From Levilactobacillus enshiensis (GTDB taxonomy: Bacteria; Bacillota; Bacilli; Lactobacillales; Lactobacillaceae): a stretch of 64,000 bases of DNA. The notes under the pieces are model-generated. The model had not been told where the DNA came from and searched no databases. It saw only the letters and a list, made by a program, of their open reading frames with translations. Location of the stretch: contig NZ_SULH01000002.1 in NCBI RefSeq assembly GCF_007115095.1, forward strand, positions 114,808-178,807, in the 5' to 3' direction. The position numbers were made by a program, and so were the translations under genes. Each line of letters begins with the position of its first letter. Position 1 is the stretch's first letter. Of this stretch, positions 49,333 through 55,774 are shown in pieces.

Positions 49333-49632
49333 TTATTTAGCTGCTTCTTCTGCAACTGGGTATACGGATACTTGACGCTTGTCACGGCCAAGACGTTCGA
49401 ATTTAACGACGCCAGCAACCTTGGCAAACAACGTATCGTCACCACCACGGCCCACGTTCAAGCCTGGGTAGATGTGCGTCCCACGTTGGCGGTAAAGGAT
49501 AGAACCACCAGTAACAGTAGAACCGTCAGCAGCCTTCGTCCCAAGACGACGACCAGCAGAGTCACGACCGTTAGCAGTAGACCCACCACCTTTATGGTGA
49601 GAGAAGAATTGTAAGTTCATGTTCATCAGCAT
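49333..49632 (-). CDS. rpmA: 50S ribosomal protein L27 with Prp-cleaved extension
   Basis: 99 residues from the ATG at 49632 (GGAGG 8 bases upstream). It begins [18 protein letters not shown]: Firmicutes L27 carries an N-terminal extension ending in FF that Prp removes so that the mature N-terminus can reach the peptidyl-transferase centre. The L27 body ([16 protein letters not shown]) is normal. prp lies just upstream. Confidence 0.97.
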
Positions 49633-49650
49633 AAGTTTCACCTCCGCAAT

Positions 49651-49989
49651 TTAGTCTTTTATTTCAACGAATTTAATATAATCCGCATAATTTGTGGCGA
49701 CATCTCTTAACCCATCCGCAAAACTCTGGAGGAGTGTTTGTCCCTTTAATTCGGCCGTTGCTTCCAGCTTTGGTGGAAGGTGGACTTCCAGATAACCACC
49801 CTCCTGATCACGATTCTCAACGTCGATTGGAATCTTAGCGATTCGTTGTAGACCGTTGACCGTCGTAATCGCAAGCACCGAGACCGCAGCGCAAACAATG
49901 TCTTGACCATACTCACCTGAGTCAGCGTGGCCAGTGATTTGGAATGAATCGATTCGGTTAGCTCCATGATGGAACGTCGCATGAATCAT
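49651..49989 (-). CDS. prp: Ribosomal-processing cysteine protease Prp
   Basis: 112 residues. ITGHADSGEYGQDIVCAAVSVLAITTVNGL holds the catalytic His22 and Cys34. Prp cuts the N-terminal extension of L27. It is located between rplU and rpmA, the conserved place. Confidence 0.96.
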   Translation of the reverse strand: MIHATFHHGANRIDSFQITGHADSGEYGQDIVCAAVSVLAITTVNGLQRIAKIPIDVENRDQEGGYLEVHLPPKLEATAELKGQTLLQSFADGLRDVATNYADYIKFVEIKD

Positions 49990-50017
49990 CGAGATCGCCT
50001 CTCTTAATCTTTAGGCT

Positions 50018-50326
50018 TTAAGCGTTGATAGCATCAACGACAACCTTAGTGTATGGTTGACGGTGACCCTTCTTCGTATGTTGGCCCTTCTTGGCCTTGT
50101 ACTTGAAAGTAACAACCTTCTTTTCCAGGCCCTGCTTTTCAACAGTTCCAGTAACGGTTGCACCTGCAACAGTTGGCGTCCCAATCTTAGGCTTGTCACC
50201 ACCGACAAAGACAACTTGGTCAAAAGTAACCTTTTCACCAGCTTCAACGTTCAACTTTTCGACGTAAACAGCTTGGCCTGCTTCGACCTTGTACTGCTTG
50301 CCGCCAGTTACGATAATTGCGTACAT
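50018..50326 (-). CDS. rplU: 50S ribosomal protein L21
   Basis: 102 residues from the ATG at 50326 (AAGGAGG 9-10 bases upstream), beginning [18 protein letters not shown] longer frame to 50446 would run back through the leader RNA and is rejected. It ends with [16 protein letters not shown]. First gene of rplU-prp-rpmA. Confidence 0.98.
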
Positions 50327-50449
50327 GTGTGTGCACCTCCTTATATATTTAGACTTAGACTCGCCGAAAACAAGTGCTCCGCAAGGCGGAAAACTTAATG
50401 ACTCGTCCCGAGCGGTTGCAGCTGTGGAAGTCCACAAATACAACATGAA
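50327..50449 (-). promoter_or_regulatory. L21 leader (ribosomal protein autoregulatory RNA)
   Basis: About 120 untranslated bases between the promoter and rplU. They contain a TGTGGACTTCCACA hairpin, a TCCGCCTTGCGGA hairpin and the CGGGACGAGTC region. Firmicutes rplU operons carry an L21 leader (Rfam family); position and layout fit, but no covariance model was run. Confidence 0.6.
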
Positions 50450-50450
50450 A

Positions 50451-50479
50451 ATTATACTTGATGGGGTCAGCTACGTCAA
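50451..50479 (-). promoter_or_regulatory. rplU operon promoter
   Basis: TTGACG (50479-50474), 17-base spacer and perfect TATAAT (50456-50451) on the minus strand, a near-consensus sigma-A promoter. It overlaps the last codons of the TetR gene. Confidence 0.85.
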
Positions 50480-51076
50480 GCTTTTTTCTGGACGACGCGC
50501 AATATCCGTCCCTACCAAGGCGAACCAAGCCGCTAGGGGCGTGACATTTGGCGTTGCCAATTGCCGAAAAGATTGTGCTAAAAATTCGGAACGATAGCGG
50601 CGATTGTCATTCAGCCAATGCTCGACTAGGCCCAAAAAGGCACTCGTCAAAAAGGTGATCTGAATGTCAACTGGTGACTCCTCAGTCGCCATCGCCGGTA
50701 ACTGTTGACTAAACGCCAACAATTCCCGTTCAAACCGCTGCTGTAAGCGTGGCCGGAATTGGGTGAATTGGGGATGCAACAGGACCGTTAAGATCTGGTG
50801 ATGCTGATCCACGTAACGTAATGCGGGACCCAGTGCGAAACCTCGCACAGCCTTTTCGTCGGACGGGATCACCGTTCTGGCCGCCGCAAACCATTCGTCA
50901 ATCACTTGTTGTTCCGTTTGTTCATAAAAATCCGTTTTGTCTTTATAGTGCAGATAAAAGGTTCCTCGCGTCAATTGCGCCGTGCTGGTCAGCTTCTGAA
51001 CCGAAATCTGCTGTAACGACTGCTGCTGTAATAATTCGCTAAGTGCCTGACGCAACTGCTCGTTGGTCCGCACCAC
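50471..51076 (-). CDS. TetR/AcrR family transcriptional regulator
   Basis: 201 residues or slightly more. The HTH is LQQISVQKLTSTAQLTRGTFYLHYKDKTDFYEQ (about residues 20-52); the C-terminal domain is of the TetR_C type found in DhaS-like regulators. The first usual start is a GTG at 51076, but the in-frame codons before it (ISQLDPR then VVRTNEQLRQAL) look like a normal TetR N-terminus and an ATC at 51097 has GGAG 9 bases upstream, so a non-standard start is possible. No target gene is obvious. Confidence 0.88.
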   Translation of the reverse strand: MVRTNEQLRQALSELLQQQSLQQISVQKLTSTAQLTRGTFYLHYKDKTDFYEQTEQQVIDEWFAAARTVIPSDEKAVRGFALGPALRYVDQHHQILTVLLHPQFTQFRPRLQQRFERELLAFSQQLPAMATEESPVDIQITFLTSAFLGLVEHWLNDNRRYRSEFLAQSFRQLATPNVTPLAAWFALVGTDIARRPEKSLT

Positions 51077-51254: not shown

Positions 51255-51291
51255 AAAAAAAAAGAGTTCTGAATAAACACCTCCAGAACTC
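51255..51291 (-). terminator. Terminator of the operon 51299-53669
   Basis: GAGTTCTG (51264-51271) pairs with CAGAACTC (51284-51291); on the minus strand nine T residues follow. It begins 8 bases after the dUTPase stop. Confidence 0.9.
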
Positions 51292-51298
51292 CCTAATC

Positions 51299-51841
51299 TT
51301 AATAGTTATTCGCTTGTCGGTCCAAGTTGACCTGCCGTTTGGTTTCATAGGCCGCCTGAATCTCGTCTTGGCTGAAGCCAAAGTCAACAAATCCCCACTT
51401 CAGGAACAGTCGCCAAGCATGGCGGAAATCCTCTTGGCGGTGAGCAAAGTGACTGTTAAACACCATTCGTTTTAGAATTAAGTATTGTTGGTCCAGATCT
51501 TTGGCGGGTCGACTCTGCTCTAACCCCGTCAGATCTTCTTCTGTGATCATGATCAGGTGCGTCCAGGTCTTCTTGGCCGCAACCAAAAAGAAGAAGTCCA
51601 TGGCATCCGTGTATTCCGTCAGTAACGTTTCCCGTGGCGTTTGACCCTTATCGGCCTTGCCCCGATGCGTTTTCCACACCTTGAACCATTCCGATGTATT
51701 GGCAACTTCTGCGAGTTCAATATCTAAGGCCACGTAGGCGTTTTCAATCTGTTGCTTCCGGGACATCTCGATTTGACGATCAACTGTGATCTGTTCATCC
51801 AGGGCAATCGACTGCTGGACTAATTTCGATAGTTCTAACAC
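51299..51841 (-). CDS. All-alpha dUTPase-like protein
   Basis: 180 residues. The helical NTP-pyrophosphatase motifs ELAEVANTSEWFKVWK (paired Glu) and EYTDAMDFFFLVAAKK (E-x-x-D) are those of dimeric dUTPases (dUTPase_2/MazG-like), which bind Mg2+ through these acids and hydrolyse dUTP to dUMP. GTG start at 51841 with AGGAGGAG upstream. Last of three co-oriented genes; its two partners are unknown. Substrate is inferred from motifs only. Confidence 0.8.
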   Translation of the reverse strand: MLELSKLVQQSIALDEQITVDRQIEMSRKQQIENAYVALDIELAEVANTSEWFKVWKTHRGKADKGQTPRETLLTEYTDAMDFFFLVAAKKTWTHLIMITEEDLTGLEQSRPAKDLDQQYLILKRMVFNSHFAHRQEDFRHAWRLFLKWGFVDFGFSQDEIQAAYETKRQVNLDRQANNY

Positions 51842-51856
51842 GTTATCTAACTCCTC

Positions 51857-52798
51857 CTAGCCAAAGATCAGCGGATCTGACTGAATCTCCAAGTCGTTCA
51901 GGTTTTCTAAGTACCAATCTCTCATGAACGGATATTGTAGCAAAATATCAAACCAAGAGACCTGTTGCGCATCATCGTGAACGGTGATGACCCATTCTGG
52001 TTGCCCTTCAAGTTGGTTGTTGAAGATATCAACCACCACATTCTTGTCCAGGGCAATCTCAGCACCATTGCCGTTGACCCCATTCGTCAACATGTAGTCG
52101 TTTTGAGCCGCCGTCACGAACAGACGATCCACAACACCAGCTGGTAGATCTGCGGAACGAACCGCATAATTTTGTCGGTTGGCCATGTCCAGAATGTTAA
52201 AGTCCACGGAATAACCGTAGTCTTCTTTTAAGTATCGCGCAAAGTCAAATAAAATCTGTACGGACGTCTTAACCGTTTCAGCCGGGACCGTATCATGGAG
52301 GTCAATGATGAACAGCTGGGTCAAGGCGTGGCTATTAAAGCGGAACATTTTCCGTTCCAAATTCAAGTAAAACAGGGATTGACCCGTTGCCCGTTCCCGA
52401 TAGAAAACACCGCCATTTTCCGACGTTTCAATCCGGAAGTTAAAGGTTCCACGGTCTCCCAGTGGCGTCAATTGTTGCGTCAACTCTTCATGGTGATCAC
52501 GCGACTGCAGAATCACATTTTTACCTTGATCATGTAATTCTAGCATTCGGGACATAAACAATAGATAGTAGTCCGAATTGCTATATTGATGCGGGAAGGT
52601 CACGTAGTCCGAATCCAATTCAAAATCGGCCAATTGCGTTGCCGCACTAACCAATTCATCGGGATCCGTGGTCTTGATCAGTTGATCCATTAACCGGGTA
52701 AACTTCAATCCCGTTTCCAAACCTGCCTTGATGGCTTCGTTATAGTTGAGTAGCCGACCACTGGTGGTCAACGTTGACGGATCATTTTCGTTAATCAT
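51857..52798 (-). CDS. Unknown protein of a dUTPase-linked operon (313 residues)
   Basis: 313 residues, acidic, soluble, with no signal peptide or membrane helix. Visible features are two D-rich stretches (LADFELDSDYVTFPHQYSNSDYY and LDKNVVVDIFNNQ) and ELTQQLTPLGDRGTFNFRIET; none matches a family I know. Its ATG overlaps the stop of the upstream coiled-coil gene (ATGATTAA) and 16 bases separate it from the dUTPase gene, so the three work in one operon. Confidence 0.75.
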   Translation of the reverse strand: MINENDPSTLTTSGRLLNYNEAIKAGLETGLKFTRLMDQLIKTTDPDELVSAATQLADFELDSDYVTFPHQYSNSDYYLLFMSRMLELHDQGKNVILQSRDHHEELTQQLTPLGDRGTFNFRIETSENGGVFYRERATGQSLFYLNLERKMFRFNSHALTQLFIIDLHDTVPAETVKTSVQILFDFARYLKEDYGYSVDFNILDMANRQNYAVRSADLPAGVVDRLFVTAAQNDYMLTNGVNGNGAEIALDKNVVVDIFNNQLEGQPEWVITVHDDAQQVSWFDILLQYPFMRDWYLENLNDLEIQSDPLIFG

Positions 52799-53669
52799 CG
52801 GCCTTCACCTCGCCCTCACTCTTGCCTAACAAACTGTTTAAGTAGTCGGCATATAAGCTCGCATTGTGGGCTTCAAAGTGTTCAAAGTCGTCAAATGCAT
52901 CCCGAATACTCTGCTTTTCATAACTAAGAATTGTATCTTCCTTGGATAATACCAAGATTTTATCGTCATTTTCTTTGATCAGTTTGTGTGCGTTCAAGGC
53001 CTTTTCGTCTTCATCAGCCAGCTTCGTCAACTGATCAATAATGCCTTGGCGTTCGTCCTTGACCTTGCTGGAATCCCACGGCAAACTGCTTCGTTGACTG
53101 TTTTCCTTTAATTGATCGCGTAGCTGAGCCTTCTCGTTGTCCCGCGTTGCTTGGGCATCGACTAGGTTTTGGAGTTTTTCACTCTCAGCTGCAATCGACT
53201 CGATCTTGGCAGTGTTCAACCGTTGATTCTGACTCTCTAACGCAAAGGAGTCCTTTAACTTCTGGTATTCCTTCTTGTCAAATTGGAATTGAACGTTGAT
53301 CACATCGAGGTCACCGAATAATCGCCGATCCCACCAGTTTCCAAAGTAAATGTGGAACAGTCCGGTGGTGTATTCCTCATAATAGAAGAATGGGTAAATG
53401 TGGCCTAAATAATCAATTAAGTTGTCGCTCAAATAATGACTGACTTGGGGATGAATGTTATCGACCAACTCAGATAAATGGTTGACTGACCGCGCTGGTC
53501 GGGTCTTCTTAACTTCCTGATAGTAGCGCGCTTGGTCCAGAAGTTCATAAACTTTTCGGTCATCGCCATGCTGAACCGCCGCCTGCAACGTACTTAAGTA
53601 ATCGAGTTTATTGGCGATTGCCTGCGTTAAGACATCGGCTGCACTAGCTTGTTGTTCTTGATTTTCCAT
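52791..53669 (-). CDS. Unknown coiled-coil protein of the same operon (292 residues)
   Basis: 292 residues. Helical N-terminus (about 1-60), an aromatic central segment (HIYPFFYYEEYTTGLFHIYFGNWWDRRLFGDLDVINVQF, about 89-127), then a Lys/Glu/Gln-rich coiled coil (about 130-265). A coiled coil can give chance likeness to SbcC-like proteins, but no ATPase motif exists. ATG at 53669 with GAGGG upstream. First gene of the operon; family not recognised. Confidence 0.75.
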   Translation of the reverse strand: MENQEQQASAADVLTQAIANKLDYLSTLQAAVQHGDDRKVYELLDQARYYQEVKKTRPARSVNHLSELVDNIHPQVSHYLSDNLIDYLGHIYPFFYYEEYTTGLFHIYFGNWWDRRLFGDLDVINVQFQFDKKEYQKLKDSFALESQNQRLNTAKIESIAAESEKLQNLVDAQATRDNEKAQLRDQLKENSQRSSLPWDSSKVKDERQGIIDQLTKLADEDEKALNAHKLIKENDDKILVLSKEDTILSYEKQSIRDAFDDFEHFEAHNASLYADYLNSLLGKSEGEVKADD

Positions 53670-53830
53670 GGATTATCCCTCATTCTGATGTTCCCTAGCG
53701 CTTGCCGTGAACATTTGGTTATACGTTCATGTTACCAAAAATTCTCATAGAATAAAGCAGTTTGAACGAAATTTGCCAGAAAACAAGGATTTTTTTAAAC
53801 AGTGGCGATCCTAATGGTTCTGAAAGTGGA

Positions 53831-55722: not shown

Positions 55723-55774
55723 ATCATACCACGCTGAAAACGGGAGTCAAGCTCACATGTCACGTTTTATGACA
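55723..55774 (-). promoter_or_regulatory. glnRA promoter with GlnR operator
   Basis: TGTCA-N7-TGACA at 55758-55774 matches the GlnR box TGTNAN7TNACA exactly. It ends 7 bases upstream of a -35 TTGACT (55750-55745), with a 16-base spacer and -10 TATGAT (55728-55723). A weaker second half-site (TGTGA) overlaps the -35. Confidence 0.85.

Follow-up and report, generated by a model that had tools for sequence, protein, structure and literature searches.

The closest described counterparts of the operon discussed here are the all-alpha dimeric dUTPases of the MazG-HisE superfamily (PF08761/phrog_173), among which the enzyme of the staphylococcal phage phiDI controls the Stl repressor by binding to it, as set out in the available part of PMC5608427. 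The trimeric dUTPases (PF00692), for which the nominal reaction is the same, have an all-beta fold unrelated to the all-alpha one (available parts of PMC12524310 and PMC5122711). We analyzed a three-gene operon in the window, that is, the whole 64,000-nucleotide stretch of Levilactobacillus enshiensis DNA under study, in which genes for two proteins, P1 and P2, precede a third gene coding for a dUTPase-like protein. The likeness to the phiDI system is that of a shared dUTPase class and of a dUTPase that would act on a partner through binding. The differences are that the phiDI dUTPase is phage-borne, keeps its active site and has a repressor as its partner, whereas no repressor was found in the operon and P1 and P2 are unrelated to known families. 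The match between the window's third protein and the phiDI dUTPase chain 5myd_A has an E-value of 0.14. What is new in this operon is that its third gene has repeatedly lost the active site while the gene itself was kept.

The sequence-only reading of the window had proposed a three-gene operon with a strong terminator, and this is borne out by the open reading frames and by an intrinsic terminator (Table 1) with a predicted RNA fold of −20.9 kcal/mol (z −5.15 relative to 200 shuffles). The gene overlap it described is likewise present (8 bases between the P1 and P2 genes), but the gap between P2 and the third gene measures 15 bases rather than the 16 it gave. Upstream of P1 lies glnA, beyond which is glnR, and downstream of the third gene is a TetR-like gene followed by rplU-ysxB-rpmA, these names being our presumptive assignments from the sequence. 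The TetR-like gene, placed between the operon and rplU, varies in identity and went undetected in some loci of the genus. The L27 protein carries an N-terminal 12-residue stretch of the type cut by the YsxB/Prp protease in Firmicutes. Judged by P2, the closest named genome is that of Levilactobacillus andaensis, at 99% identity.

Table 1. Features of the operon and its surroundings, in window positions.
Feature	Positions	Strand	Remarks
rplU-ysxB-rpmA	49333-50446	minus	
TetR-like gene	50471-51076	minus	
Intrinsic terminator	51261-51294	minus	13-pair stem and T tract
Third gene, dUTPase-like	51299-51841	minus	180 aa, GTG start
P2	51857-52798	minus	313 aa, ATG start
P1	52791-53669	minus	292 aa, ATG start
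Leader hairpin of P1, Levilactobacillus	53688-53714 (hand-counted)	minus	weak covariation
Promoter-like element CTTTATT-N16-TAACATGAA	53726-53757	minus	conserved upstream of P1
GlnR-box-like site	55758-55774		

The promoter-like element is conserved across the genus and is not clearly of the sigma-70 type. It occurs once per genome, at the operon, in five of six genomes of the genus, the sixth having no exact match, and similar elements were seen by eye upstream of P1 in at least several other genera among the matches listed. Given this conservation, the operon probably has its own promoter. The idea of a wider promoter regulon was dropped, since the element matched the operon alone in those five genomes and so named no functional neighbors. 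Downstream of the element, the leader hairpin shows a two-sided change in 2 of 16 pairs. A search with Rfam returned a single match, on the plus strand and far under the gathering score. Control by GlnR was also considered and rejected: the sole GlnR-box-like site in the window, judged by what we take to be the box consensus, precedes glnR, with none before P1, and 1.12 such sites are expected by chance in the window.

P2 was detected in 35 of 58 genomes, comprising all 35 of the genus (the window's included) and none of the 23 from other families. Across the Lactobacillaceae, a search with the single sequence recovered it in 202 of 350 genomes and a profile search in 233 of 350, from 24 of 40 genera. 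Among 250 genomes of the class, two matched, namely the window's own and one from a second family (f3), which is probably the Enterococcaceae. Within the order, the P1 profile found eight f3 genomes among 198; P1-like and P2-like genes stand side by side in all four f3 loci examined, and the third-gene profile matched none of seven f3 genomes. From this distribution, f3 included, it follows that the pair is old within the Lactobacillales, and the presence of P2 in all 35 genomes of the genus and in most of those sampled from the family upholds the earlier proposal of a core, conserved chromosomal system. We then assembled 146 non-redundant Lactobacillaceae loci, a set from which 34 loci had been removed earlier as duplicates and which excludes seven f3 loci unmatched by the P2 model. 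P1 and P2 are adjacent and on the same strand in all 146, with a median gap of −8 bases and an overlap in 123. The order glnA-P1-P2-third gene-rplU recurs in many genera; genus g46 has glnA-P1-P2-rplU with the third gene absent, and in genus g33 the pair is followed by a gene that we take to be LemA-like. In three g46 loci (L095, L099 and L104), an open reading frame of 170 to 229 residues with a hydrophobic start, to which we could assign no family, fills the interval between P2 and rplU. A further locus (L105, genome G064, genus g25) has P1 in two open reading frames next to an open P2, possibly through a frameshift.

By their sequences, P1 and P2 are two conserved, undescribed families. Both had been called unrecognised from the letters of the window, and rightly so, as neither passes any Pfam or NCBIfam cut-off. 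The same holds for five more P1-P2 pairs, of which two come from f3 and three from further genera of the Lactobacillaceae; the best match among them is to a ribosomal L29 model (E 0.00044, under its cut-off). Against PHROGs, the best match of P1 has an E-value of 0.013 and P2 has none. AlphaFold2 models built on 41 sequences each show that P1 (pLDDT 80.7, pTM 0.57) begins with helix and has a small domain of four strands together with a long coiled coil, and that P2 (pLDDT 85.7, pTM 0.83) consists of two alpha/beta domains. The structure prediction and fold search proposed earlier for the two proteins thus yielded models for both, but no known fold above noise. Foldseek returned no match at E ≤ 0.001 in the PDB for P1 or P2, nor in a viral structure library for P2, and a known fold for P1 was rejected because the search gave solely coiled-coil-type matches. 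For the C-terminal domain of P2 (about residues 203-307), we compared a TBP-like and a phosphoglucomutase-domain-like reading; the alignments to 9du5_A (Z 6.0, rmsd 3.3, 84 aligned) and to 2zfd_B (Z 6.2, rmsd 6.2, 99 aligned) both lie in the noise range of the tool. We claim no fold for P2 because the TBP-like matches are weak (Z ≤ 6.2) and Foldseek found none. Profiles of P1 and P2 run against the sequences of solved structures gave matches at chance level alone. Kinship between the two, each of which has an alpha/beta part, was not supported, at an hhalign probability of 0.04%. Among the matches listed in a literature search, none concerned P1, P2 or the operon, and there was no mention in the literature searched of lp_1582 to lp_1585, the locus tags that we take to be possible operon genes.

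The last gene had been assigned all-alpha dUTPase motifs, and the profiles agree: the window protein matches PF08761 with an E-value of 1.6e-19 (71.2 bits, cut-off 22.9) and phrog_173 with 5.4e-19. It carries the carboxylates E42, E45, E76 and D79 in ExxE and ExxD motifs, letters identical in four phage dUTPases, and we take them to be those of the metal site. Its motif V residues K168, N172 and R175 are also those of the four phage enzymes, with which it agrees at 11/11 active-site positions. The role of motif V is taken from the phiDI equivalents in the available part of PMC5608427. Judging from these residues, the active site of the window protein is complete, and hydrolysis of dUTP or of a related dNTP is still to be expected of it.

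Such completeness is far from general in the operon family. The third gene is present in 130 of the 146 P1-P2 loci, and its open reading frame starts at most 100 bases from the end of P2 in 126 of them. When aligned on the window protein, all four carboxylates are kept in 72 of the 130 loci and not in the other 58, a loss of the active site that sets the operon family apart from the all-alpha dUTPases. We call these two groups intact and decayed. Among the rows used for the tree described below, all 45 intact ones have 11/11 active-site residues and the 58 decayed ones have 0 to 3 of 11 (median 1). Motif V is complete in 70 of the 72 intact copies versus none of the 58 decayed ones. A second residue set, made up of L39, L43, W93, H141, W143, K148 and G150 (window numbering), has a median of 7/7 in both groups, the lowest count being 6 among intact copies and 4 among decayed ones; the four phage dUTPases have 11/11 active-site residues, yet only 0 to 3 of these seven, and these figures are descriptions rather than tests, because both residue sets were picked after viewing the alignment. 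In particular, W93, H141, W143 and K148, which the operon family has, are wanting in the four phage enzymes. When decayed operon copies were scanned with PF08761, four of five gave no match at E ≤ 1 and one scored under the cut-off. Over whole genomes, PF08761 matched 16/16 with an intact copy, 2/22 with a decayed copy (both weaker, and both above the cut-off) and 0/27 others. Thus, decayed copies can score under the Pfam threshold and may therefore pass as hypothetical proteins.

We placed the two states on a P1+P2 tree of 117 rows, of which 45 are intact, 58 decayed and 14 without the third gene; L105, with its P1 in two open reading frames, L119 and most Levilactobacillus rows are left out of it. 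First, parsimony gave eight changes between intact and decayed, or seven when three long-branch rows were removed, and the starred branches by themselves force seven with the decayed label and six with the intact label. These counts come from a quick P1+P2 tree, not a species tree, and parsimony is blind to loss versus regain. Second, on the set without those long-branch rows (55 decayed and 45 intact), a single decayed clade was rejected at p-AU 3e-7. Third, both states occur within each of the genera g23, g36 and g37. Loss of many residues is a likelier direction than their regain, and some intact copies may have been regained by transfer. A check of nearest neighbors confined to residues 85-165 placed L069 and L076 next to decayed copies that also neighbor both on the tree. 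The same check placed L050 nearest to L052 and then to intact Levilactobacillus copies. For L172, the nearest was L173, followed by intact copies from g20 and, after these, a decayed copy from g23.

Selection on the third gene was estimated by a simple counting method on close pairs chosen from the tree. Of 17 decayed pairs, 11 gave a dN/dS of 0.04-0.36 and six had saturated dS; of 13 intact pairs, the six for which dS was finite gave 0.01-0.08. With their catalytic residues gone and their open reading frames under purifying selection, the decayed copies in 58/130 loci are, at the level of sequence, pseudoenzymes. Constraint on them is relaxed relative to intact copies: the ratio of third-gene dN to P2 dN has a median of 1.47 for the decayed pairs (16, all disjoint) and of 0.76 for the intact ones (11, likewise disjoint), with P 7e-4 and three non-disjoint pairs excluded.

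The active site thus switched state several times on the tree, whereas the gene was kept in its place and with its second residue set, for which reason the selected role does not appear to be catalysis. The reading we favor, at a probability of about one half, is that the third protein is a non-catalytic partner, structural or regulatory, of the P1-P2 module. Its strongest competitor holds that the protein is a working dNTP pyrophosphatase serving nucleotide-pool control together with P1 and P2, and that the decayed copies are on their way out. The full active site of every intact tree row, the low dN/dS of the intact genes and the faster evolution of the decayed ones all fit that account. Against it, the decayed copies are still open, in place, under purifying selection and in possession of the second set. 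Further, a trimeric-type dUTPase (PF00692), encoded elsewhere than in the operon, exceeds the cut-off in 65 of 65 genomes tested, so the operon's enzyme is not the sole dUTPase of the cell, and the removal of dUTP should not hinge on the operon. Eight of these PF00692 proteins were inspected and have what we take to be trimeric-dUTPase-type motifs. The idea that the nucleotide pool is the operon's reason for being, which the earlier reading had entertained, is accordingly not supported, and we regard the pyrophosphatase account as rather doubtful. The repeated change of the active site, the purifying selection and the other dUTPase together make dUTP hydrolysis by the operon protein look dispensable, which leaves a structural or regulatory role as the one probably retained. 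In the lineages of the 72/130 loci with a fully kept active site, this very conservation means that catalysis does matter.

A second competitor, which we consider unlikely, is that the third protein is a passenger with its own non-catalytic function, as a homodimer or with some other partner, and merely shares the operon. The earlier reading had named the separation of the genes in relatives as evidence against a linked system, and this separation is real in part. The third gene occurs in 203 of 350 genomes of the family, 177 of which also have P2; P2 stands without it in 56 (seven genera: g25, g28, g29, g33, g34, g46 and g50), the third gene stands without P2 in 26 (16 in g40 and 10 in g43), and both are absent from 91. 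As each is thus found apart from the other, there can be no obligate complex. Two stand-alone third genes examined (L196 and L197, from g40 and g43) are both decayed as we read them. In L196 two second-set residues are changed. L197 lies beside miaA, with no glnR, glnA, P1 or P2 open reading frame between it and miaA, and keeps all seven. The P1 profile, which finds P1 in f3 and was run here without a positive control of its own, gave no match in either genome. Since L197 retains the second set without P1 and P2, the conserved face may be for another partner or for self-association, as the passenger account would have it. What speaks against that account is that 177 of the 203 third-gene genomes have P2 as well, and that the third gene follows so closely on P2 in 126 of 130 loci.

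The weakest competitor, an anti-phage defence module acting on nucleotides, draws on the occurrence of dNTP-hydrolysing enzymes in defence and on PADLOC matches of one P1-like protein (L121: RT_UG21 2.5e-5, LmuB 3.6e-4), but is very improbable, as the RT_UG21 match is to the coiled coil, nothing in PADLOC is matched below E 0.04 by the window P1 (such weak matches of P1 and the P1-like protein being largely to coiled coil), P2 and the dUTPase have no PADLOC match, P2 is absent from 50,697 phage records, the neighborhood is conserved in many genera with P2 throughout the genus, and catalysis looks dispensable; the nucleotide-based defence floated earlier is therefore not supported.

Returning to the third protein as a non-catalytic partner, P1 and P2 would be cytosolic, probably interacting proteins of an old Lactobacillales module, which an all-alpha dUTPase, to judge by its distribution, may have joined in a forebear common to many Lactobacillaceae. 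The third protein would dock onto the pair in a physical complex through a putative face formed by W93, H141, W143, K148 and G150, outside the active site. There it might serve as a structural or regulatory subunit with a regulatory output, by analogy with phage dUTPases that bind a partner. A more far-reaching version, which we put forward tentatively as a possibility, is that P1, P2 and the dUTPase-fold protein make up an undescribed three-part regulatory complex of lactic acid bacteria, in which a nucleotide-sensing subunit has repeatedly been turned into a purely structural signal subunit. If true, the operon would hold a natural series of enzyme-to-pseudoenzyme conversions, and the separate losses of catalysis with intact relatives in g23, g36 and g37 would constitute a natural experiment in the passage from enzyme to binding protein. 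For the lactobacilli, the label "dUTPase" need not imply dUTP hydrolysis.
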